From: Oscillospiraceae bacterium
GTDB lineage: Bacteria; Bacillota; Clostridia; Oscillospirales; Ruminococcaceae
Length of the DNA stretch: 34,270 bases
Direction: 5' to 3'
NCBI GenBank assembly: GCA_017829005.1
Contig: JAGAJF010000159.1
Location: 1-34,270, forward strand
The translations under genes and the position numbers were made by a program. The notes below the pieces were generated by a model. The model was not told the DNA's origin. It searched no databases and saw only the letters and a list, made by a program, of their open reading frames with translations. Below are positions 1 through 25,778 of the stretch, in pieces (within the stretch, counting starts at the first letter, position 1; each line of letters begins with the position of its first letter).

Positions 1-251
1 ATAGGAGCGGAGCTGCTCTGCTTCAAGGGCATAGTAACGTCCATGGGGGCGGAGCTGCTCTGATTAAGCGGCATAGTAACGTCCATAGGAGCGGAGCTGC
101 TCTGCTTCAAGGGCATGGTAACGTCCATGGGAGCAGAATTGCCCTGATTTAATGGCATAGTAACGTCCATGGGGGCAGAACTGTCCTGCTTCAAGGGCAT
201 AGTAACGTCCATGGGAGCGGAACTGCTTTGCTTCAAAGGCACAGTCACGTC
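1..251 (-). repeat. 42-bp in-frame tandem repeat array encoding DVT(M/V)PL units
   Basis: The 11-base core gtaacgtccat recurs at 34, 76, 118, 160 and 202, with a variant at 244, so the spacing is exactly 42 bases. Each unit encodes 14 residues, which keeps the kinase frame open. Units are nearly identical at the DNA level, with mainly K/N, S/D and S/G changes; the unit nearest the kinase domain is the most divergent. The array continues past the left edge, so the total copy number is unknown. Confidence 0.95.
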
Positions 252-1319
252 CGAAGCGGGCTTTTCCGATTTAACAGACACTGTCCTGCTGTGAGCGGCT
301 TTTCTGTAATTCTCAGCCTGCTGTTTGAAATCACGCTTTATAAATGGCTCGGGCTTTATTGAAATAGCTGCAAAGGCTTCCTTGAACTCAAATATATCCT
401 GATATCTGTCGGAGATTTTCAGCTCTGTAGCCTTCTTTATTATCTCCCACAGCTCGTCAGGGATATTGTGAACATTGGAGTTGTATTCCTCATCATCTTC
501 AAGCCTGGACATGGGGTCATCGAGAAGGTCAAGGGTGAGGGCATGGTAAAGTGTGGCACCAAGGGAATAGATATCCGTCCATGGACCCTGTTTACCCTTT
601 TTCTGATACTGCTCAAGAGGAGCATAGCCCTGCTTTAGTATTACCGAAAGGCTCTGGGAGCCTTCAGCGATTACCTGCCTTGCCGCACCGAAATCCAGCA
701 GCTTCAAGGTGCCGTCATTGCAGAGCATAATGTTGTCGGGGGAGATATCACGGTGGAGAACGTTGGCGTTATGAGCAGTGATAAGGGCGTTTGAGACTTC
801 GTTGGCAAGAAACACAGCCTGTCCCGGGGTTATTGCGCCGTTTTTGCCTATGTAGGCTTTCAGGTTTATGCCCTGCAGATATCCCATTGTGAAATATACC
901 GTATCGTTTCCGTAGAAGAAATCGTAAACGCTTACGATATTGGGATTGCCGTTAAAGCCTGCCACAAGGCGGGCTTCGTTGTAAAACCTGTCGGCGCCCT
1001 CCTTGAAGCTTTTCTGCGTATCGGCAGAGGTGGTCACCATAGTGCTGCTGATGTCTCTTACTGCAACGCCATAAGGGTAATACTCCTTTATTGCCACCTT
1101 GCAGCTGAGCTTCATATCATAGGCAAGATAGGTTATACCAAAGCCGCCCTTTCCTATGACCCTGCCTATCATATATCTGCCCTCGAGAACACTTCCCACA
1201 GGCAGCACCACAGGGTCGCAGGTATATTTGCTCCTTTCAAAACCGCATTGGCTGCAGGGCTCGCTGCTTATTTCGGCAAAGCAGTTCTCGCAAAGAGACT
1301 TGTTCGACATTCTTATCAT
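1..1319 (-). CDS. Zinc-ribbon Ser/Thr protein kinase with C-terminal Thr-repeat array (3' end outside window)
   Basis: This is a Hanks-type Ser/Thr kinase that I translated by hand; the reading frame stays open to the left edge, so the C terminus is missing (439 codons visible). Cys10, Cys13, Cys22 and Cys25 form a short zinc ribbon. The kinase domain spans about residues 46-320, with glycine loop GKGGFG (56-61), Lys78, Glu115, HRD (189-191), Asn196 and DFG (209-211), so it should be active. Residues 354 onward are 14-residue tandem repeats (consensus SAPMDVTMPLKQSS) with threonines at 359, 373, 387, 401, 415 and 429. The start was chosen because AGGAGG at 1327-1332 lies 7 bases upstream; a second in-frame ATG is at 1310. 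No transmembrane helix is seen in the visible part. It is the last visible gene of an operon that also encodes an FHA protein and a PP2C-like protein. Substrates are unknown. Confidence 0.92.
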   Translation of the reverse strand, partial: MIRMSNKSLCENCFAEISSEPCSQCGFERSKYTCDPVVLPVGSVLEGRYMIGRVIGKGGFGITYLAYDMKLSCKVAIKEYYPYGVAVRDISSTMVTTSADTQKSFKEGADRFYNEARLVAGFNGNPNIVSVYDFFYGNDTVYFTMGYLQGINLKAYIGKNGAITPGQAVFLANEVSNALITAHNANVLHRDISPDNIMLCNDGTLKLLDFGAARQVIAEGSQSLSVILKQGYAPLEQYQKKGKQGPWTDIYSLGATLYHALTLDLLDDPMSRLEDDEEYNSNVHNIPDELWEIIKKATELKISDRYQDIFEFKEAFAAISIKPEPFIKRDFKQQAENYRKAAHSRTVSVKSEKPASDVTVPLKQSSSAPMDVTMPLKQDSSAPMDVTMPLNQGNSAPMDVTMPLKQSSSAPMDVTMPLNQSSSAPMDVTMPLKQSSSAP

Positions 1320-1337: not shown

Positions 1338-2780
1338 TCATTCTGAAAGCTCGTTGTCAAGATAGGGATTTAAAGGACCGTCGGCAAAATTCTCTCTGGG
1401 GAAGGGCTTATACATATTTGAATTATACTGCTCGCATACCTCGTCGGCAAGAAATCCGCCCATTTCGGTAAGCTTCACGACCTTGCCGTTGTCCTCGATA
1501 AGACCGTATTTTTTCAGTGTTTCTGTCTTCTTTTGGAAAACATCGTCAAAGTTCACACCGGTTTTTCTGAGGAAATCCGACTTGATAACGGAGCGGTTTT
1601 TCAGGGGAAGGATTATCGCCTGGCGTATCTGCTCCTCACGGGAACGTCTGCAGCCTCTTGTTATGGGCAGCTCGCCGCTGTCTATCTTGCTGTAATACTC
1701 GTCAAAATACTGGGAATTGATGTCGAAGCGGTCGTGATAGCTGGAAAATCCCGTAAGTCCGAAGCCCACCTGGTCGTACATATTGCAGCACTGATTGTAT
1801 GCGTAGTGGGAAAATACCCTCTTATCCTTGGCATACACACGTCTGAGAGTTTCGTTATAGCCGTTTTCGTTCAGGATATCTATGGCTATCTGCTTCATCA
1901 TCATGGTCGTTTTGAAATCGGGGATAGCCGTTCCCTGTCTGCCGCCCTCGTAGGTGTTTATCTTGCCCTGCTTGTCGCCGTATGCCTGGACTTTCAGACG
2001 ATATATCTGTATCTCGCCCACAGGCAGGCGGACTGCCCTGTCCATTACCTCTATCCAGTTGTCAATGGTCTCGCCGGGGTGACCGTAGATAAATTCAATA
2101 TTTACGTCAAAGCCGTATTCAACAGCTTTCCGCACCGCTTCCTCAGCCTGCTCCGCATTATGGGAGCGGTTCATTACCTTGAGAACATCATTGTCAAGCG
2201 ACTGTATGCCGATGGTAAGTCTGGTTATTCCGTGCTTTTTCATTATTTTAAGGCGCTGCTCTCCCTCCTCGCCAATGATGGAGTTGGGGTCGTGGTCAAC
2301 GTTATACTGCTTGCAGCAGGACAGATCCATTCTTTTTCCCAGCTCCTCAAGGAGATGGTCAAGAAGTGCGGGAGGCAGATATGTAGGAGTGCCGCCGCCC
2401 AGAAGTATTGAACGGGGCTTGAGCTTCTCTATATTAAATCTTTTAAGATAAAGGTCGATCTCCCTTATAAGATAGCTTACATATTTTTCCTTTTCCTCAC
2501 GGCATTCTCCTGTTTTGCCGGGATAGTGGCAGAACAGGCAGTGACGGATACAGAAGGGTATGTGAACGTAAACGTCCATAAATCCGTCAGCGGGATATTC
2601 AAAATCCTTCAGACATTCGTCGGCATTGGTGTCGGGATATCTGGTGATGGGGGGGTAATGCACCGAGGGAACGAAATCTCCGTCCTTGCAGATAAGCCCC
2701 ATATCCTGGTACTCCTTTACCTTGGAAAATACCTCTTCAGCGTGCAGTATCAGCTGCTTTTTTCTTTCATTCGAAGTCAT
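1338..2780 (-). CDS. HemN/HemW-like radical SAM protein
   Basis: This is a radical SAM enzyme of the coproporphyrinogen III oxidase-like family. The [4Fe-4S] motif CxxxCxxC is at Cys77, Cys81 and Cys84 (after YVHIPF), followed by a GGGTP SAM-binding segment. The C terminus resembles the HemN C-terminal winged domain. True HemN/HemW function is not established: this fold also covers heme-degrading HutW/ChuW-like enzymes and class C radical SAM methyltransferases. The ATG at 2780 is preferred over an upstream GTG at 2798 because AAAGGA lies 9 bases before it; this gives 480 residues. It sits 44 bases after the SLC13 transporter gene and 18 bases before the kinase gene, in the same apparent operon. 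No heme biosynthesis gene is nearby, so a specialised substrate is plausible. Confidence 0.85.
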   Translation of the reverse strand: MTSNERKKQLILHAEEVFSKVKEYQDMGLICKDGDFVPSVHYPPITRYPDTNADECLKDFEYPADGFMDVYVHIPFCIRHCLFCHYPGKTGECREEKEKYVSYLIREIDLYLKRFNIEKLKPRSILLGGGTPTYLPPALLDHLLEELGKRMDLSCCKQYNVDHDPNSIIGEEGEQRLKIMKKHGITRLTIGIQSLDNDVLKVMNRSHNAEQAEEAVRKAVEYGFDVNIEFIYGHPGETIDNWIEVMDRAVRLPVGEIQIYRLKVQAYGDKQGKINTYEGGRQGTAIPDFKTTMMMKQIAIDILNENGYNETLRRVYAKDKRVFSHYAYNQCCNMYDQVGFGLTGFSSYHDRFDINSQYFDEYYSKIDSGELPITRGCRRSREEQIRQAIILPLKNRSVIKSDFLRKTGVNFDDVFQKKTETLKKYGLIEDNGKVVKLTEMGGFLADEVCEQYNSNMYKPFPRENFADGPLNPYLDNELSE

Positions 2781-2824
2781 ATTAAAAATTCCTTTCACTT
2801 TAATTTTTTAGGAAAAACAGAATG

Positions 2825-4231
2825 TCACAGAATAAATTTAAATACAGCCCCGACCCATAGGGGAACTATAATTATCATACTTAACTGTATCCATACCGTT
2901 GCCCTGGGAAGCTCAAACATTGTAAATGCTTTTTTGTCATAAGCCGCAGCCAGAGGTGCGTCAAGGGGGAAAAGATAGATATTTGATACGCAGAGAGCGC
3001 TTGCTATGACAAGCATTATGGGGTCCAGACCGTTGTTTTGTGCAAAGCTGATTATTATGGGCGTAAGGATAGTAGTTACCGCAGGTGCCGACGGCAGCAG
3101 AGCCATAAACACAAAGGTAACAGCAGCCGTCTGCATAAGTATGAATATTAAGGGGAGACTTGTTTTTTCGGGAAACAGAAGCTTTGTGAACTGATCGCAC
3201 ATCCCTGTGCCGATGACAGCATTTGCCACGGAAATAAGATTTCCCGCAATAAAGAATGTGGGCCAGCTTATAGCTTTTGCAAACTCCTCATAGGTCAGCA
3301 CGCCGAATTTGGGAACAAAAAGCAGTGCAAGACCTGCAATGGCTGTTACCGTAATGTTTATGGAAGGCACCCAGGAGCTTATGAGCCAGGCGGATACAAC
3401 GGCAAAAATAACCAACGCCGCATAGATATCCTTGGAAGAAGCAGGAGCTTTCTCCGAGATATTGCTCAGATATGCGTTCATCTCGTCCTCGTTCGGTTCC
3501 TTCGGCGGGAACACTGCCGTGATAATTAAAAATGCGATGAAGACCATAATGACCGCAAGGGGCAGCCCTATCTTTATCCAGTCGATAAACCTGACGGTCT
3601 GACCGGTATATCTTTCCAGCATATCAAGGCAGATAAGGTTCATGCTTGAGCCTGCGGGGGTCATCATTCCGCCTATCATTGCTCCCACCGTAATGCACAT
3701 CATCATACAGCGCTTTGTTTCCGATTTTTTTCCCTTATCGGACATAAAATCAAGGAATGCTTCTGCAAAGGGTAAAAAAATAACCGCTGCGGCAACATTC
3801 GACATTATTGACGAAAGCAGCGCCGAGCATATCATAAAAATAAAGATAAGCTTTTTTACCCCGATTTTCTTTCCTCTTATCACAAGACTTAACAGGCGGC
3901 GGCTCAGCACCGATTTCTGAAATGCGGCTGATATTCCGAAGGAGGCTGTTGTAAAATAAAGAATATGGTTTGAAAAGCCGCAGAAGCCTTCGCTTACAGT
4001 GTCAACACAGCCGAATGCAAAAAGCATAGCCGATGAAAGCATACAGGTAACGCATATGTTGAACGGTTCAAAAATCAGCAGGAACAGGGTCGCTGCGGCA
4101 ACGCCCATTGTATGCGCTGCCTGCTCCGAAAGACCGTCAATGTTTATAAAAAAAGCTCCAAGCAGGGACAGCACAGCCAGAACTGCACCTGTAAGCTGCT
4201 TTACAGCTTTTGCATTAAAAGAGCTGCTCAT
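2825..4231 (-). CDS. SLC13/DASS-family anion symporter
   Basis: This is a 468-residue polytopic membrane protein with about 11-12 hydrophobic segments. It resembles the divalent anion:Na+ symporter (SLC13/CitT-like) family, which moves dicarboxylates, citrate or sulfate across the inner membrane. Two family-like signature regions are visible: MTPAGSSMNLI in the middle and PSAPAVTTILTPI near the C terminus. A hydrophilic loop lies near residues 225-260. The start is supported by GAGGAGA 7 bases upstream of the ATG. It lies between the PP2C-like gene and the radical SAM gene with short gaps, which suggests co-transcription. The substrate cannot be told from sequence. Confidence 0.82.
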   Translation of the reverse strand: MSSSFNAKAVKQLTGAVLAVLSLLGAFFINIDGLSEQAAHTMGVAAATLFLLIFEPFNICVTCMLSSAMLFAFGCVDTVSEGFCGFSNHILYFTTASFGISAAFQKSVLSRRLLSLVIRGKKIGVKKLIFIFMICSALLSSIMSNVAAAVIFLPFAEAFLDFMSDKGKKSETKRCMMMCITVGAMIGGMMTPAGSSMNLICLDMLERYTGQTVRFIDWIKIGLPLAVIMVFIAFLIITAVFPPKEPNEDEMNAYLSNISEKAPASSKDIYAALVIFAVVSAWLISSWVPSINITVTAIAGLALLFVPKFGVLTYEEFAKAISWPTFFIAGNLISVANAVIGTGMCDQFTKLLFPEKTSLPLIFILMQTAAVTFVFMALLPSAPAVTTILTPIIISFAQNNGLDPIMLVIASALCVSNIYLFPLDAPLAAAYDKKAFTMFELPRATVWIQLSMIIIVPLWVGAVFKFIL

Positions 4232-4277: not shown

Positions 4278-4931
4278 TTATCCGAAAAGACGGAATTTCT
4301 TCTTAGGCAGAATGACCGCCAGAGCAGAGCATCGCTGCTTTTCCAGCTCCGATGATATCCTTCCCACCCATTCCTCTGCGTCAGATGAAGCCGCAAGTCC
4401 GTCTTCAAGCACAGAAATTTGTAGGTCGATAATATTATCTGCTCCGCTTATGATAAGAAAAGAATTCACGCCTTTCTGCAGATCAAAGGCAGGCTCAAAC
4501 TTACAATGCAGATTAAGCCTTTTTCCAAGGGTAACGTCCTCGTTTCCCTCAGAAACAGACTGCAGCTTTCCGTCGGAAAAATAGTATATCTTAGCATTTC
4601 CCGTGACTGCCCACCGTGCTTTATTACGGAAAATATATAAAGCTGCGGTGCTGCAGAAAATGCTCTTTCCCGGTTCCTGCATACCGTATATGCCTTCGTT
4701 CACAAAGCCTGTGATGGCTTCCACCGCCTCGTCACGCATAGAGGGACGCTGTACAAAGCTTTCCGTACCAACGGTGACTGCTCTTTCACAGGCGGACGTG
4801 CCTCTGCTGTTATCGGCAGGGTAGGCTGCCGCAAAAGCAGAGGCAGCTCCACGCCTGCGAACCCCGAATAATACATTTTCGGGGCTTTTGCAGTCATAAC
4901 GGGAATAATGCTTTATGCTGATATCTGCCAT
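4278..4931 (-). CDS. Degenerate PP2C-like (PPM) protein, probable pseudophosphatase
   Basis: This 217-residue protein has no confident family match by eye. Residues 90-215 follow the order of a PP2C fold: a core strand (CSTAALYIF), then WAVTGNAKIYYFSDGKLQSV where active enzymes have GDSRxYxxxxGxL, then FLIISGADNIID where they have LLxxSDGLxD, then SALAVILP where they have DNxTxxxV. The metal-binding aspartates expected at GDS, SDG and DN are absent, so catalysis is unlikely. It starts at an ATG with AAAGGA about 11 bases upstream. It lies in the same operon as a Ser/Thr kinase and a tandem-FHA transporter, which fits a phospho-signalling accessory role. The PP2C assignment is an inference; a novel family remains possible. 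Confidence 0.6.
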   Translation of the reverse strand: MADISIKHYSRYDCKSPENVLFGVRRRGAASAFAAAYPADNSRGTSACERAVTVGTESFVQRPSMRDEAVEAITGFVNEGIYGMQEPGKSIFCSTAALYIFRNKARWAVTGNAKIYYFSDGKLQSVSEGNEDVTLGKRLNLHCKFEPAFDLQKGVNSFLIISGADNIIDLQISVLEDGLAASSDAEEWVGRISSELEKQRCSALAVILPKKKFRLFG

Positions 4932-4960: not shown

Positions 4961-7027
4961 TTACTGCTTATCATAATTCTCGTCCTGTCTGAAGATCAGC
5001 ACAAATCTCTGGGGAATGAGGGACAGGGAATCCACAAGCTTAAAGCCGTAATAGCTCAGCTGTGCAATAATAAGCTCGGGCATTATTCCGGGACCGTAAT
5101 AGGACGGAACGCCCTTTTCGGTAATGTTATTATCCACGATGATAAGTCTGCCGTCCTTTTTCAGTGCCTTGTGCAGGCTGTCAATAAACTGATCCTTTAC
5201 AAATTCGATATCAGTAATATAAACAGCGTGATACATCGAGCACATAAATACGGTATCAATGCTGTTTTCGGGAAGGCAGGCGTCATTCATTTTTGCGGTA
5301 AGGGGAATGATGTTTTTCACCTTATTCTGCTTTTTGAAGCCTTCAACATATTTAAGGGCTTCCTTGTTTATTTCGGTGGCATAGACCTTGCCGTTCCTGC
5401 CCGCAGCCTTGGAGAACTGCCGGGTAAAATATCCTCCTCCGCAGCCGATATCCGCCACGGTCTCGCCCTCACGAATGTTTATGTACTCAAGCATTTCCTT
5501 TGTTTTTTCCCACATATAGCGGTTGGGATTATTAAATACCAGAAATTCATTCCATTCGTTCAGCGTCTGGACGGAAAATTCCTTGCCGCTGTATTCAAAA
5601 TTGGTATTCTCCGAGGCATCGTCGGGGTCGGGAAGCTCAAGATGGAATTTATAGAAAAGATACTGCTTTAGCCGCTCGAAATCATTGTCCGCAAAATGAC
5701 TGCAGTAATATGCCGTAAGCTCGTCTGAGGTCATTTCATCACGCCGCTCCCGTGAGGCAAGGCGGTATTCGATAAACCACATCAGAGCCGTATAATCGTC
5801 GCCCACTCTTTCAAGGGGATAAAGCTCTTCAAATCCCTTATATGCTTCTCTCAGCTTGCTCTCATTGCTTTCCGCAAAGCCCTCGTACATTATCCGTCCC
5901 ACTTTTTTTCCACGCTTTGTATATCCCGAGGTGGAGGTGCCGATTATCCTGTATCTTACAAGGGATGCGGAGGAATTTACAAGTATTGTTTTCTCGTCTG
6001 CCATACTGCTGCGGCTTGTCTTTTCGGGGATATCCACCATATCAAAAAGCAGCACATATCTCTGAGGAGTAAACTGAAAGGTATCGGCAAGCTTGAAGCC
6101 GTAATACCACAGCTGGCTTATAAGCATCTGCTTGTTTACATAGGGACCGTGATAGGGGAGTGTTTCTCCCGTAACAAGGTCGTTATCCACAATTATGAGC
6201 CGTCCGCCTTCCTTCAGCGCATTGCGTATGCTTGCAGCAAAGCTGTCCCGCTCGGCGTCGGTAAATGCGGCGTAAACATTGTGGTAGAGAGAGCACATAT
6301 ACACAACGTCCACCTTTATATCCTTTGCAAGACCAATTCCGTCAAAGCTGCTTTCCACGACCTCCACATTCCTTATATCATAATCGCTGACATATTTGCG
6401 GAGATATTCCAGATGTCTGGGATTTGTTTCAATGGCGTATACCTTGCCGCTGTCTCCCACAACATCGGCAAAGCGGAAGGAATAATAGCCCGGACCGCTG
6501 CCTACATCGGCAATGTGCATACCCTCTTTAAGGTTGAATTTCTCCATATTTTCTCTGGTGGTCTCCCAGCGCTCCCTGTCGGGATTGCTGAAAAGTATGT
6601 AATCCTCCAGAAATCTCATACGGGCTTTCATTTCGGTATTATCTCCGGGACCGTATTCAACAATGTGGTATTTGTATTTCAGATATGTTCTGAGATTATC
6701 GTAGTCATTGTCTGTCATCATACGTCTGAAGCTGTTTACCATAGGCTTCCGGGTAAGCTCTTCCTTAACGCTGTCATCTGCAAGAAAATATTTGCAGAGC
6801 CATTCAAGGGCTGTGTATTCTCCGCCGAAATTTTCATTGGGGATTATCTCGTCATATATCCTTATTGCCTTTTGCAGCTTGTTGTTATTTTTGCTGTCAA
6901 GATAGTCAAGAATAAGCCTTGCCGCCTTTTTTCCGCCTTCGGTGATGTCAAAGGAGTCAAGACTTCCAAGATGAATGAGGGACTGCTTATCGGTTATCCT
7001 TATCTCAGCAGGATTTTCGTAGTTCAT
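4961..7027 (-). CDS. Internally duplicated SAM-dependent methyltransferase
   Basis: This 688-residue protein is built from two similar halves, offset by about 352 residues. Each half has an N-terminal helical module (about 40-125 and 385-465) followed by a class I SAM methyltransferase domain. Motif I reads ADVGSGPGY at 173-181 and ADIGCGGGY at 525-533, and the acidic end of strand 2 follows in each (AIETN, ATEIN). Both halves also share a conserved segment (FMCSMYHAVY or YMCSLYHNVY), GGRLIIVDN or DGRLIIVDN, and a C-terminal PQRxVLxF strand. Both SAM sites look intact. The substrate is unknown. The start has AAAGGAAG 6 bases upstream. It lies 29 bases upstream of the PP2C-like gene. Confidence 0.88.
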   Translation of the reverse strand: MNYENPAEIRITDKQSLIHLGSLDSFDITEGGKKAARLILDYLDSKNNNKLQKAIRIYDEIIPNENFGGEYTALEWLCKYFLADDSVKEELTRKPMVNSFRRMMTDNDYDNLRTYLKYKYHIVEYGPGDNTEMKARMRFLEDYILFSNPDRERWETTRENMEKFNLKEGMHIADVGSGPGYYSFRFADVVGDSGKVYAIETNPRHLEYLRKYVSDYDIRNVEVVESSFDGIGLAKDIKVDVVYMCSLYHNVYAAFTDAERDSFAASIRNALKEGGRLIIVDNDLVTGETLPYHGPYVNKQMLISQLWYYGFKLADTFQFTPQRYVLLFDMVDIPEKTSRSSMADEKTILVNSSASLVRYRIIGTSTSGYTKRGKKVGRIMYEGFAESNESKLREAYKGFEELYPLERVGDDYTALMWFIEYRLASRERRDEMTSDELTAYYCSHFADNDFERLKQYLFYKFHLELPDPDDASENTNFEYSGKEFSVQTLNEWNEFLVFNNPNRYMWEKTKEMLEYINIREGETVADIGCGGGYFTRQFSKAAGRNGKVYATEINKEALKYVEGFKKQNKVKNIIPLTAKMNDACLPENSIDTVFMCSMYHAVYITDIEFVKDQFIDSLHKALKKDGRLIIVDNNITEKGVPSYYGPGIMPELIIAQLSYYGFKLVDSLSLIPQRFVLIFRQDENYDKQ

Positions 7028-7101: not shown

Positions 7102-7941
7102 TCAGTTAAGAGTTTCGTATCCGTCGGTGGAGGGCAGCGTGATGTCAACTGCGCTGCCGGGGTCAACGAAGGAGATGTCAATGACAAGATCCAGATCGTA
7201 GCTTGTTTCCGTTCCCGAAGCCATAAGAGAGGCAGGCACAGTTACCTTCATAGTGCCGCTGTACTGAGCTTTGGTAACGATATCGTTTGTAACAGTCACC
7301 TTGTTGGAGAAATTGTTCAGCTCGTCGATAACAAGAGTGTCTCCGTCGGTGCTCTGAGTTTCGTTTGCGATGATGATGTTAAGATATTTCTTGACAAGAG
7401 TGTCCGAAAAGCTGAGGGTGTATACATCTCCCGATGCGGAAATATCGGTTATCGCCGCACGCTCAATGGGAGACAGGAGACCCAGCTCCTTTATCTTTCC
7501 TGCCTCAAGGAAGCTTGAGAATTCGTTCAGGAATTCCTCTGTGTTGAAGGTGCTGTCCGTGTCAGAGCCCTTCTTCTGTGCTTCCTCTCTGTCGGAGGAC
7601 ATTGCAGGCTTTGAGTTCATAGCATATCTGGTCTTATGTCCGTCAGCCTCGGTATAGATATAATCGCCGTCGGAGAACTGGATTATCTTGTTGCCGTCAA
7701 CGTCCATTTCATAGTAAAGGATATTTTTGCCGTTGGAAGTATCAAGCTTGAAAAGACCGTCTGTTTCTGTGGTAACGCCGTCCATTTTAAGGGAGAGGTC
7801 GATATTTGCCTCCATTCCTCCCTGTGCGGATACCTTTTTGTAGGCGGAAGCGTATTTTTCATAATCTCCTCCGCCTCCGCAGCCTGCAAATAACATACAG
7901 GAAAGGGAAAGACCGGTCAGAACTGCAATAAACTTTTTCAT
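7102..7941 (-). CDS. Predicted secreted lipoprotein
   Basis: This 279-residue protein begins with a type II signal peptide: Lys-Lys, a hydrophobic core, then the lipobox LFAGC with the lipidated cysteine at residue 21, followed by a glycine stretch. The mature part is rich in beta-strand-like segments with Thr, Ser and Asp. It resembles the broad group of Clostridial lipoproteins related to LppX/DUF6612-type folds, but I cannot name a family firmly. The start has AGGAG 8 bases upstream. It lies 76 bases after the FHA-ABC exporter gene, so it may be an extracytoplasmic partner or cargo acceptor for that exporter; this is inference from position only. Confidence 0.85.
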   Translation of the reverse strand: MKKFIAVLTGLSLSCMLFAGCGGGGDYEKYASAYKKVSAQGGMEANIDLSLKMDGVTTETDGLFKLDTSNGKNILYYEMDVDGNKIIQFSDGDYIYTEADGHKTRYAMNSKPAMSSDREEAQKKGSDTDSTFNTEEFLNEFSSFLEAGKIKELGLLSPIERAAITDISASGDVYTLSFSDTLVKKYLNIIIANETQSTDGDTLVIDELNNFSNKVTVTNDIVTKAQYSGTMKVTVPASLMASGTETSYDLDLVIDISFVDPGSAVDITLPSTDGYETLN

Positions 7942-8017: not shown

Positions 8018-10504
8018 TTACTGCCTTGCTTTTCTGTGGGGAGCGGAAAAACGTATATCCTTCAGATACAGGAAAACAACAGCCGCCGCAACGCATACCA
8101 CCGACATTATGAGCAGCATTATCCAGGAACTCCACACAGGGTCAAGTCCGAACAGATATGTTTTGTATTCGGAATATGCCTCGTCAACTCCGAAGCCGTT
8201 TGAAAATTCCGTATCTGTCCATATGCCAGTATCATAGCGGCAGGATTCATACATACTGTTTATTTTTGATGAGGTGAAGTAGGCTATGCACGCCCAGCGG
8301 CAGGTAACTGCCTTTGACATGACCTCCGTAAGACCCGAAAGGGTGCAGGCAACGCCCGACAGAAGTATCTGGGGCAGCAGGCACACGGGACATATTACAA
8401 GCGCCATATCGTTTGACACCGCTGCGGATATGGTCAGACCTATGCACATTGCGCTTAGCATTGACATAAACGTGGTTATGTACATCTCCAGCCACAGGCA
8501 GTTTTCAAAGACTATACCGCCCTCGTTCATTCCCAGCGCTCTTGCTGTTGCCGACTCCACATCTCCGTCAATGGTCGCCACGGTATCGGTGAAAAATACC
8601 AGCATAGCTATCATTATAGCTGCCTGAACAGCACAAAGTCCCGCTGTGATAACAAATTTCGACATAACATAGGGAATGGGCTTTACTCCCGTGAAGCGTT
8701 CTCTCTCGTATATGGTGCGCTCCTTGCTTATTTCCTGGACGGAATTGAAAATTCCCACCCAGAACGCCGCACACCCGAAGGAAAACATCAGCTTCATCGT
8801 GTCCTCAGCCACCATAAAGGGCATACTCGTTCGGTTTATTACTATCCCTAACAGGTTGTACAGATTTCCGTCCGCCTGAAAGGATATGCACACAAGTATG
8901 GTAAGCACTACGGGCATTGCAAGCAGCAAAATGAGACGTGTTCTGCTGTTGAAGGTTATTTCGGCATATCTTTGTGTCAGGACACGAAATTGCCTTATTC
9001 CCTCCGCAATACCGTTTTTCTGTTTCTTTTCCGCAATGGGAGTTCCCGTGTTATATCCCGTCATAGTGTTTGTCCCGGCAAATCTTTCCGAGACTTCCTT
9101 GGAATGTTCGTTCAGGTCGTCGTAAATATCGGTGATATTCTCTTTTCGGAAGAAGTCAAGAGCCTTTGAGGGTGCTCCCGAGTAGCAGAGCAGACCTCCG
9201 CTGCCCATACATATCAGCCTGTCACACAGATTTATATTCTGAACGGTATGGGTGACCATAATCACTGTTTTGCCCGTCATTGCAAGCTTTTTGAGCATCT
9301 TCATAAGATTTTTTTCCGTTCCGGGGTCAAGTCCCGAGGACGGCTCGTCAAGGAAAAACAGCTTGGGTGAAGCAAGAAGCTCCACTGCTATGCTTGCACG
9401 TTTTTTCTGACCGCCCGAAAGCTTGTTTATCAGCGTGTGTCTGTGCTTGGTAAGCTCGACCATCTCAAGTGTCTCGTCGATCTTGCGGTCTATCTCCTCT
9501 TTGGACATATCCTTGGGCATTCTAAGCCTTGCGGAATGGATGAGCATTCTTTCAAGGGTGAGGGTATCGTAAACGATATCCTTCTGAGGAACATAGCCGA
9601 TAATGCTTCGTATGCTCCTGTTATTGGTCTTGATGCTCTCACCGTTTATCAGAACATCGCCCGAAGTAAAGTCGGTCATACCCGACAGACAGTTGAGGAG
9701 CGTGGTCTTTCCGGCACCCGAACCGCCCACGATAGCGACAAATTCACCCGGTTCAATGGAAAGGCTCACATTGTCGGTGATGACCTTTTCGCCCTTTCCC
9801 GCCTTGACCTTTTTGACCACATTGCACGCCGCAATGCTGACTCCGCCCGAATTGCCCAGCTGATAAAGAATCGTTCCGCTGAAAACCATTGCTGTGTCCG
9901 CAACGGTTATCTTGTCCATCTGTTCAAGGCGCTGCTTTTTGGTGAGCGGCTTTCCATTAAGGATAACGCCGTTCATGGAATTGTTGTCGGCTATGTAATA
10001 ACCGTCATTTTCCTTGGTGATGATGCAGTGGAACCTTGATACTGACGGGTGATCCACAACGATGTCACATTCGTGGCTTCTGCCTATGACAAACTTGTCC
10101 TTTCCCTCCAGCGTAAAGCTGTCAGGCTTGCTGTCAGGAGCATTTTCGGCGTTCCTGATACCGGAAAAGGCTATAACGCAGCGTTCTGCGGGATTTTGTC
10201 CGATATAGAATTTATCTCCGTCATGAAGCTGCTTTGAAGCGACCTTAACGCCGTTGAAGGTCAGGCCGTTTACGCTGTTGTCGTCTTTAACGTTCCAGCC
10301 CGAGTCTGTCTTGAAAAAGGTGCAGTGAGCACGGGATATGAAGGAAACGCCTGAGTCAATGGCAATATCGTTTATTTCGCTGTCCTCGCCGCCGTGATGA
10401 TCTCCTCTTCCCATTCGCACCGTGCTTTTTTTATATGAATCAAGATCGTAAACACGAGGCTCGTTCTGCCCGATAAAAACGGTAATGTAATTTCTGGCAG
10501 GCAC
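8018..10504 (-). CDS. Tandem-FHA ABC transporter (Rv1747-like architecture)
   Basis: This 828-residue half transporter has two FHA domains, an ABC ATPase and an ABC-2 type membrane domain. FHA1 has Arg33, Ser57-x-x-His60 and Asn79; FHA2 has Gly141-Arg142, Ser156-x-x-His159 and Asn178, so both keep the phosphothreonine-pocket residues. The ATPase has Walker A GGSGAGKTT (260-268), Q-loop Gln307, signature LSGGQ (362-366), Walker B ending LDEP (to 388) and His419. About six membrane helices follow residue 510. The order FHA-FHA-ABC-membrane matches mycobacterial Rv1747, which is controlled by the kinase PknF. The GTG start is supported by AGGAGGGG 6 bases upstream. It heads the minus-strand run that ends with the kinase. 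The cargo is unknown. Confidence 0.93.
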   Translation of the reverse strand: MPARNYITVFIGQNEPRVYDLDSYKKSTVRMGRGDHHGGEDSEINDIAIDSGVSFISRAHCTFFKTDSGWNVKDDNSVNGLTFNGVKVASKQLHDGDKFYIGQNPAERCVIAFSGIRNAENAPDSKPDSFTLEGKDKFVIGRSHECDIVVDHPSVSRFHCIITKENDGYYIADNNSMNGVILNGKPLTKKQRLEQMDKITVADTAMVFSGTILYQLGNSGGVSIAACNVVKKVKAGKGEKVITDNVSLSIEPGEFVAIVGGSGAGKTTLLNCLSGMTDFTSGDVLINGESIKTNNRSIRSIIGYVPQKDIVYDTLTLERMLIHSARLRMPKDMSKEEIDRKIDETLEMVELTKHRHTLINKLSGGQKKRASIAVELLASPKLFFLDEPSSGLDPGTEKNLMKMLKKLAMTGKTVIMVTHTVQNINLCDRLICMGSGGLLCYSGAPSKALDFFRKENITDIYDDLNEHSKEVSERFAGTNTMTGYNTGTPIAEKKQKNGIAEGIRQFRVLTQRYAEITFNSRTRLILLLAMPVVLTILVCISFQADGNLYNLLGIVINRTSMPFMVAEDTMKLMFSFGCAAFWVGIFNSVQEISKERTIYERERFTGVKPIPYVMSKFVITAGLCAVQAAIMIAMLVFFTDTVATIDGDVESATARALGMNEGGIVFENCLWLEMYITTFMSMLSAMCIGLTISAAVSNDMALVICPVCLLPQILLSGVACTLSGLTEVMSKAVTCRWACIAYFTSSKINSMYESCRYDTGIWTDTEFSNGFGVDEAYSEYKTYLFGLDPVWSSWIMLLIMSVVCVAAAVVFLYLKDIRFSAPHRKARQ

Positions 10505-10811: not shown

Positions 10812-10845
10812 AAAAAAATCCCCTCAGCTAAAAAGCCGAGGGGAT
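10812..10845 (-). terminator. Intrinsic terminator after nth
   Basis: On the minus strand an 8-bp stem (10838-10845 with 10818-10825) plus a 2-bp extension encloses a T-rich loop and is followed at once by seven T residues (10812-10818). It lies 6 bases past the nth stop codon and would end the pilZ-parA-comFB-nth transcript. It separates that operon from the FHA-ABC operon. Confidence 0.9.
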
Positions 10846-24368: not shown

Positions 24369-25778
24369 ATGAAAAGGAATTCGGTAAAAAAGCTTTTCCG
24401 AAGCATCGGTGCAGTATGCGCCGCAGGTGTTATCGCCCTGTCTGTAATGACGGGTTCGGTGGTAACTGCCGATTATGAGGACGATATTGCTGAGCTTGAA
24501 CGCAAGCAGGAAGCTCTTGCCGAGGAGCGCAGACAGCTTGAGGCTTCTCTCGGCGATTATGAGCAAAATGCTGAGGAGCACGCAAAATATCTTGAAGTTT
24601 ACGATGAAAAAATGAAGGTGCAGGAGCAGGAGATCGCCAATATCAAGGAGCAGATTTCCCTTCTGAACGACAATATCGCCGACCTTGAGGAGCAGATAAA
24701 GGGCAAGGAAGAGGAAGTCGCCGAGGGAATAGAGGAGTTCAAGGCGCGGCTTCGTGCAATGTATATGAACGGAAATGACAGCATTGCTTCGATGCTTGCA
24801 GGCTCCACCGATTTCTACGATATCCTTGCAAGAACGGAGCTTATGGAGAGAATGTCCCGTCATGACAAGGAAATGATAGATGACCTGAATGAAAAAATAA
24901 CTGCCCTCAACAACGATAAGACCGCTCTTGAGCAAACTAAGGCGGAGACCGAGCAGAAGAAGAAAGAGGCAGAGAATGTTCTTGCCGACCTGCAGAAGAC
25001 CTATGCCGACCACGAGGAGACTAAGGAGTGGTACGAGGCACAGGCTGAATACAGCAGAAACCGTACCGAGGAGATCAAGCGAGAGGAAGCCGATGCCGAG
25101 CAGGAGCTGCAGGAATATATAAGAAAGCATCAGGAAGAGCTTGAAAGAAAGCGTGAAGAAGAGCGCAAGCGCAAAGAAGAAGAGGAAAGAAAGCGCAGAG
25201 AGGAAGAGCAGAGACGAAAGGAAGAGGAGGAGCGCAAGCGCAGGGAAGAGGAAGAGCAGAAGCGCCTTGAAGCGGAAGCTCAGGGCATTGAGTACGTTCC
25301 CGAGCCTGCCCCCGAGCCCGAGCCTGAGACTTCCTCCGCTGATACATATCAGTACGTAACGGGAGCTTCACAGGGCTTTATATGGCCCTGCCCCACCGTT
25401 CTCAATATGACCGATACATACGGCTACAGAACCATCGCCGAGGAGGGCGGAGCCAGCGATTTCCATAAGGGCATCGACATCAACAAGCCCGGCTGTGCGG
25501 GAGAGCCTATCGTGGCATCCGCTTCGGGAACCGTTATCAGAGCTTCCAATACGGGCAACGGCTACGGAATACACGTTCTCATTGACCACGGCGACAAGAT
25601 ATCCACCCTTTACGGTCATATGTCCAGCTGCACCGTCAGCGTGGGAGAAGAGGTGACCCAGGGACAGACCATCGGCTATATCGGCTGTACAGGCTATGCA
25701 TATGGAAATCATTGCCATTTTGAGGTCAGAGTAAACGGAGAGACCGTAGACCCTCTGAACTATGTAAGTATGGGATAA
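24369..25778 (+). CDS. PcsB/EnvC-like M23 peptidoglycan hydrolase
   Basis: This 469-residue secreted protein has a signal peptide (about 1-34), a long coiled coil (about 36-232) with a PcsB-like cap around residues 138-166, a highly charged E/R/K segment (about 233-305), a Pro-Glu linker (310-320) and a C-terminal M23 domain (about 345-465). The metal ligands His366 and Asp370, and His448 and His450, are present, so the domain looks catalytic, unlike EnvC of E. coli. Its place after ftsEX suggests it is the hydrolase controlled by FtsEX during septation. A hairpin follows its stop. Confidence 0.93.
   Translation: MKRNSVKKLFRSIGAVCAAGVIALSVMTGSVVTADYEDDIAELERKQEALAEERRQLEASLGDYEQNAEEHAKYLEVYDEKMKVQEQEIANIKEQISLLNDNIADLEEQIKGKEEEVAEGIEEFKARLRAMYMNGNDSIASMLAGSTDFYDILARTELMERMSRHDKEMIDDLNEKITALNNDKTALEQTKAETEQKKKEAENVLADLQKTYADHEETKEWYEAQAEYSRNRTEEIKREEADAEQELQEYIRKHQEELERKREEERKRKEEEERKRREEEQRRKEEEERKRREEEEQKRLEAEAQGIEYVPEPAPEPEPETSSADTYQYVTGASQGFIWPCPTVLNMTDTYGYRTIAEEGGASDFHKGIDINKPGCAGEPIVASASGTVIRASNTGNGYGIHVLIDHGDKISTLYGHMSSCTVSVGEEVTQGQTIGYIGCTGYAYGNHCHFEVRVNGETVDPLNYVSMG

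Follow-up and report, generated by a model that had tools for sequence, protein, structure and literature searches.

A serine/threonine kinase of an Oscillospiraceae bacterium carries, in the linker between its kinase domain and a predicted membrane span, a tandem array in which every visible unit holds a threonine with leucine at +3, and this array is probably a juxtamembrane multi-site docking strip for an FHA exporter encoded in the same gene run. Sequence, gene neighbourhood and controls agree on this reading, of which the phylogenetic independence is weak; phosphorylation of the array and its binding by FHA domains are predictions. The DNA analysed, referred to as the window, is the whole contig C123 of genome G000 (34,270 bases); the genome comprises 2.88 Mb and is 93.7% complete. 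The kinase and its array lie at the edge of the window:

3..1319, minus strand: Ser/Thr kinase with an N-terminal Cys4 motif (by eye); Pfam Pkinase E 5.3e-34, residues 49-287.
4..252, minus strand: 42-bp / 14-residue tandem array in the linker from the kinase domain to the predicted span (TRF and unit alignment; span on contig C142).

The kinase frame runs over 439 residues from an ATG start and meets no stop before the contig end, the gene being cut inside the array; VAIK, HRD and DFG motifs are present in the kinase domain by eye. At positions 4-252, TRF reports a 42-bp unit in 5.9 copies with 84% matches. An earlier note on this DNA had described six 14-residue repeats of the form D-V-T-(M/V)-P-L, all with Leu at +3, and the translation agrees with it to the residue: the cores lie at T359, T373, T387, T401, T415 and T429, spaced by exactly 14 residues, five of them reading DVTMPL and one DVTVPL. 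The pattern [DN].T[VIM].[LIM] is absent from 25 other chosen ORFs of the window (8,558 residues). A separate repeat of the window, a degenerate 24-bp tandem repeat at 25158-25265, lies within the gene of an M23 peptidase that has a PcsB-type coiled coil.

The array coincides with an assembly break. The ends of C123 and C142 overlap by 18 bases, and C142 starts with the same kind of array: two cores in frame are followed by a hydrophobic span and then by LRR_5 (BspA-type) repeats. Searched as DNA, the final 700 bases of the gene matched the end of C123, the end of C142 and kinase paralogues on C110 and C145. C142 is the probable continuation of the window kinase and would thereby supply its membrane span; the contigs were kept unjoined, and the eight cores considered here are those visible on both together.

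In all eight units, six in the window and two on C142, Leu stands at +3 of the Thr. Units were chosen by their core pattern; despite this selection, the window units follow one another every 14 residues, so that no period lacks a core. Across the eight units, variation is synonymous only at the Thr (ACT/ACC), the +2 Pro (four codons), the +3 Leu (three codons), the -1 Val and one spacer Ser, whereas the remaining nine columns, including -2 and +1, vary in residue. Lys occupies +4 in six units. A low-complexity linker that was expanded by slippage and binds no ligand would account for tandem repeats in a segment expected to be disordered, and for a copy number that differs between species (in a species-level comparison only). 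That T, +2 and +3 vary only silently, next to residue changes in most spacer columns, speaks against such an origin, which the linker counts given below make very improbable.

Eight Pkinase profile matches were found in the window's genome, two of them with arrays; five further Pkinase proteins that were read, with the C150 kinase left out, carry none. The second array, on the C110 paralogue, has a period of 9 residues and TVPL in 5/5 cores, and its T, +1, +2 and +3 positions vary by synonymous codons only. The window and C110 arrays differ, yet both read T-x-P-L: two kinases of one genome hold two arrays with one core. Their outer domains are LRR_5 on the window kinase (through C142) and LRR_4 on the C110 paralogue, and the C145 kinase has a lone TISI site ahead of its membrane span. 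The array peptide was searched against seven genomes. In the window's genome it matched only the window kinase and C142; the known TVPL array on C110 was missed, which indicates the short reach of this search. Elsewhere it matched two array kinases of G021 and gave further matches in G014 (one, weak) and G024 (four), with no match in G020, G025 and G030.

The predicted partner is an exporter in the same minus-strand run, as the earlier note had proposed; it was found at 8018-10504, and the genes from 10504 down to 1319 are separated by gaps of only 18-76 bases:

8018..10504, minus strand: ABC exporter, FHA-FHA-ATPase-ABC2 membrane domain (Pfam FHA in two stretches, ABC_tran, ABC2_membrane).
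10199..10417, minus strand: FHA domain 1, pThr-pocket residues G-R / S-R-x-H / S-x-N-G intact (profile and alignment).
9902..10090, minus strand: FHA domain 2, pThr-pocket residues G-R / S-R-x-H / S-x-N-G intact (profile and alignment).

In 13/13 aligned exporters neither FHA domain shows any variation at the pocket residues, the truncated exporter of G012 being omitted from the alignment. The two Pfam FHA matches are 108 bases apart, and the alignment likewise has a short inter-FHA linker; among solved structures, those of the Rv1747 FHA domains, 6cah (E 3.6e-8) and 6ccd (5e-7), are matched by a profile built on the window-type tandem FHA. A whole-genome search with PF00498 returned two FHA domains, both in the window exporter; this is one profile at E <= 0.001, which may miss divergent FHA domains, in a genome that is 93.7% complete. 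Leu or Ile at +3 of the phosphothreonine suits FHA domains other than those selecting Asp. Selectivity at +3 is described in PMC4037201, for Asp with Rad53 FHA1 and also for pTXXI. In the window kinase, Thr sites with such an FHA-type +3 residue lie between the kinase domain and the span that C142 would contribute.

Five genes lie between exporter and kinase, and a hairpin precedes the exporter:

10818..10845, minus strand: terminator-like hairpin and T tract in the interval that separates the exporter from the endonuclease III gene (consensus match only).
7102..7941, minus strand: lipoprotein (signal peptide and lipobox seen by eye) without family match; its place next to the exporter, immediately after it, is conserved.
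4961..7027, minus strand: protein with two SAM-methyltransferase domains (domain match); conserved in the gene order.
4278..4931, minus strand: 217-residue protein without Pfam or NCBIfam match, possibly a degenerate PP2C fold; conserved in the gene order.
2825..4231, minus strand: DASS/CitMHS anion symporter (domain match); same place in G024.
1338..2798, minus strand: HemN-like radical SAM protein; its position from exporter to kinase in the run is conserved, between the two.

The hairpin (10845-10818, 12 pairs) is likely the upstream border of the transcription unit; such matches number 16 in the region versus 11.4 in shuffles. The order exporter, lipoprotein, double methyltransferase, 217-residue protein, HemN-like protein and kinase recurs in G000, G021, G025, G028, G029, G031 and G032. 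G024 keeps it together with the DASS transporter, with no 217-residue homologue detected; at the other compared loci, no DASS symporter was detected in that place. In G014, G026 and G030 the first three genes are followed by a contig edge. The order is thus kept in 8 genomes (including G000) and partly in 3 more, all related gut Clostridia, and the arrangement around the exporter differs in G020 and G033. Exporter and family kinase share one contig in 11/14 exporter genomes, the G026 kinase being a 256-residue fragment frame. The 217-residue protein was compared by hhalign with 18 ORFs from PP2C loci and gave a weak core alignment (E 0.0075, probability 5%); the usual PP2C Asp after Gly seems to be missing by eye, so that the protein may be a dead phosphatase-like subunit.

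For a comparison of linkers, 73 related-kinase loci were collected from named records together with further loci of the genus. The exporter was sought in 70 genomes and found in 19 at E <= 1e-60, G045 being a duplicate of G012; four distant exporters (G060, G066, G068, G069; 39-42% identical) were counted apart, and G012 has an exporter and no usable linker. From 136 kinase ORFs, 36 were dropped (2 of the duplicate G045, 27 with a linker below 40 residues and 7 without a membrane span), leaving 100 with a linker of at least 40 residues that pass the membrane-span rule; three linkers (the window's, L044 and L046) were kept with the span unseen. Of these 100, 13 exporter genomes supply 37, another 33 genomes supply 53 and the four distant-exporter genomes 10. 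Four of the 53, from three genomes not searched for the exporter, were excluded from the linker and Ser/Thr context recounts, which leaves 49 linkers from 30 genomes; in the kinase tree they were counted as exporter-less. A side observation concerns a single element resembling T-A-[KQLVIR]-[PAS]-[FYI], 27-38 residues after the DRY-type motif of the kinase domain, in 10 of the 136 ORFs with and without exporter (L006, L092, L020, L021, L024, L026, L027, L196, L038 and L047); it is possibly an older phosphosite.

The 37 linkers of the exporter genomes contain 94 T-x-x-[L/I] sites versus 25.7 (sd 4.5) in shuffles, and 0/500 shuffles reach 94; the Ser-x-x-[L/I] control in the same linkers gives 17 versus 25.4. 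The 49 linkers of exporter-less genomes hold 20 sites versus 20.1 expected, with 20 versus 24.3 for serine. The longer pattern [DN].T..[LI], with an acidic or amide residue ahead of the threonine, occurs 59 times in the exporter group versus 3.1; by the same pattern the exporter-less linkers lie slightly above their shuffles (7 versus 2.6, reached in 9/500). A kinase with at least three T-x-x-[L/I] sites is found in 9/13 exporter genomes versus 1/30 exporter-less ones, and one with at least two in 11/13 versus 6/30, the per-genome and per-linker counts being uncorrected for descent. When one kinase per exporter genome was drawn at random, five draws gave 20-38 sites versus 8.1-11.0 expected. 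In the four genomes with distant exporters, T-x-x-[L/I] occurs 1 time versus 1.7 and the serine control 1 versus 1.9. Two of these genomes, G068 and G069, hold Gemmiger kinases (L089, L090) with a different repeated core, [HR]TVLAD with Ala at +3; both also encode a two-FHA protein of 513 residues, whose match to the exporter covers the FHA and ATPase part.

The enrichment is specific in residue and in offset. Leu or Ile after Thr is most frequent at +3 (94/374, 0.251; background 0.069), and +2 shows a lesser rise (0.136). When distinct contexts are counted once per kinase, +3 is Leu or Ile for 84/349 Thr versus 15/332 Ser in exporter linkers, and for 20/257 Thr versus 19/294 Ser in exporter-less ones. 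Beyond the membrane span, 35 of these exporter-genome proteins show no enrichment of T-x-x-[L/I] (95 versus 119.3). A linker shaped by slippage only was rejected on these grounds: threonine and not serine is favoured, at +3, and not beyond the membrane.

Arrays could also be multi-site autophosphorylation substrates that follow the kinase's own preference and tune the linker through charge, conformation or negative feedback, with no FHA domain taking part. StkP offers the precedent: according to PMC12077195, seven of its threonines between kinase domain and membrane span are phosphorylated in streptococci, which lack FHA domains, and its substrate motif restricts +3 and has K at +4, the residue most of the units here share. 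Kinase preference may therefore contribute to the array sequence, and the +3 residue could reflect it in addition to any reader. The +3 symbol of that motif, as printed in that paper, stands for a hydrophilic residue, which misfits Leu unless two symbols were swapped. Further evidence makes autophosphorylation without a reader an unlikely explanation: in five exporter-less relatives (L020, L021, L027, L038 and L047) the kinase shares 60-66% identity with that of the window and its linker holds 0 or 1 site, the exporter-less linkers as a whole hold no more sites than expected, and exporter and kinase keep a conserved gene order.

It is less probable still that the strip docks another phosphothreonine reader, whether a further FHA protein or a reader of unknown kind, with the exporter as an incidental neighbour. 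At least one FHA domain is present in 42/50 genomes tested, and many exporter-bearing relatives have FHA proteins besides the exporter, as this explanation would have it; in the window's genome, however, PF00498 found no second FHA protein, within the completeness given above. As a general partner, any FHA protein was tried and rejected: in three exporter-less relatives a protease-membrane-FHA protein is encoded close to the kinase, and the kinase linkers hold 0-2 sites and no array, so that the presence of an FHA protein alone does not predict arrays. These proteins (L047:3096-4475, L038:1589-2839 and L048:3264-4703) combine a trypsin-like protease and a membrane span (both by eye) with a C-terminal FHA domain, and their genes end 1.3-1.6 kb before the kinase.

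For docking to the exporter, the stronger argument is turnover: within the lineage that holds most exporter-genome kinases (see the tree below), arrays differ while Thr and mostly +3 Leu stay. The cores read TMPL/TVPL in the window, TVPL on C110, TVAL/TAAL in G021, TQAL/TMPV in G024 and TVLL in G030, besides T[MV][LYF]L; arrays of unrelated sequence retain Thr, with +3 mostly Leu or Ile, and in G024 (L028) the Thr codon is invariant. The earlier note had named related kinases with repeats lacking the Thr and +3 Leu as a finding that would refute it. On balance the comparison does not refute it, since the Thr persists and Leu or Ile prevails at +3. There are exceptions: G014 has an exporter and a three-unit repeat with A, M and V at +3, several G024 units have Val there, and G020, which also has the exporter, shows a single site (DKTVFIG) and four Ser-x-x-[L/I] in the linker. 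Of the six units listed for one G021 kinase, one has +3 Val, and G053, without exporter, has three sites in one linker. The interpretation put forward in the earlier note, of phosphorylated repeats as a multivalent ligand for the FHA pair, is partly supported. Its suggestion of a valency that may differ among strains was not confirmed in this comparison, which covered different species.

Descent limits the weight of the association. In a quick maximum-likelihood tree built from 100 kinase domains, one set (support 89, not starred) holds 27/37 exporter-genome kinases and just one exporter-less row, G035. On this tree, exporter presence changes 9 times, T..[LI] at two or more sites 16 times and T[VIM].[LIMV] at two or more sites 6 times. 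Six independent pairs on supported branches go on average 1.9 the same way and 0.6 the opposite way for T..[LI] at two or more sites, and 1.5 and 0.0 for the stricter motif, neither being significant. With few independent events and a pair test that is not significant, the exporter-array association, although real in the data, may rest on one ancestral pairing, largely in one kinase clade. A wider sample contained the exporter at E <= 1e-150 in 3/396 genomes of the family and 3/391 of the class, the window's own included in both; by coordinates these exporters coincide with G021, G020 and (one) G060 and so add no independent lineages.

Kinases with different outer domains may share the exporter. 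Beyond the membrane span, 20 further exporter-genome kinases were scanned, two of which (in G014 and G020) are the weak array cases. A sensor-type domain was found in 15 of them (LRR_5 in eight, YARHG in four, LRR_4 in two and PDZ in one); of the others, one has a weak match only (ECSCR, NTF2-like) and four have none. In single genomes, for example G024, G029 and G030, the T[VIMQ].[LIMV] core occurs at least twice in each of three or more kinases. This suggests that several sensors converge on one exporter.

The docking strip could operate in the following manner: An LRR-bearing sensor kinase, once activated at the membrane, would autophosphorylate the threonines of the array, either in cis or across adjacent kinase molecules. 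Each pThr-x-x-Leu could then be bound by an FHA domain of the exporter, whose gene heads the same run. Several phosphothreonines per tail and two FHA domains per exporter would provide avidity, by which an active kinase would retain the exporter, perhaps gather it into clusters, and place it for phosphorylation or switch it. Several kinases with different outer sensor domains, each with a strip, would converge on one exporter. A broader scheme, which we advance tentatively and with less conviction than the docking itself, is a many-to-one phospho-docking hub: sensor kinases with LRR_5, LRR_4, YARHG or PDZ domains would each have gained their own pThr-x-x-Leu strip by separate expansions and recruit one tandem-FHA exporter, the repeat number setting avidity and perhaps condensation at active sensors. 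If true, this would be a compact system with its valency written in the DNA as repeat number, and bacterial juxtamembrane phosphorylation and FHA-driven transporter clustering would become testable with short peptides and proteins of gut commensals. A limited literature search aimed at such arrays or at the exporter in these bacteria returned one paper, a kinase classification; this does not imply absence from print.

Three known systems resemble parts of this arrangement. With StkP the window kinase shares multiple threonines in the segment from kinase domain to span, phosphorylated in StkP and candidate sites here; it differs in that the available part of PMC12077195 describes no repeated core for StkP, and in that streptococci are without FHA. 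The same paper reports that the phosphorylated juxtamembrane segment of PknB binds FhaA. The likeness lies in a juxtamembrane phosphothreonine of a kinase (here a candidate) that is read by an FHA protein (here predicted), the difference in the tandem array, in the several kinases with different sensors and in the reader, which would be an exporter. Closer to the gene run as a whole, we read the window system as a rearranged PknF-Rv1747-type module, with the candidate phosphoacceptors moved to the kinase and multiplied. In Rv1747 of Mycobacterium tuberculosis, the inter-FHA linker carries phosphoacceptor sites. PMC7761784 and PMC9312465 place Rv1747 in an operon with the kinase PknF and report that phosphorylation induces clustering; in the former, its two FHA domains are joined by a 150-residue disordered region. 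Both systems combine a kinase gene with an FHA-FHA-ATPase-membrane-domain exporter, here on the same strand, closely spaced and in conserved order. In contrast to the long disordered linker of Rv1747, the FHA domains here are joined by a short linker, and the candidate phosphothreonines are on the kinase, in repeated form; if the docking reading is true, multivalent docking strips on the exporter's sensor kinases have taken the place of the long Rv1747-style inter-FHA linker.
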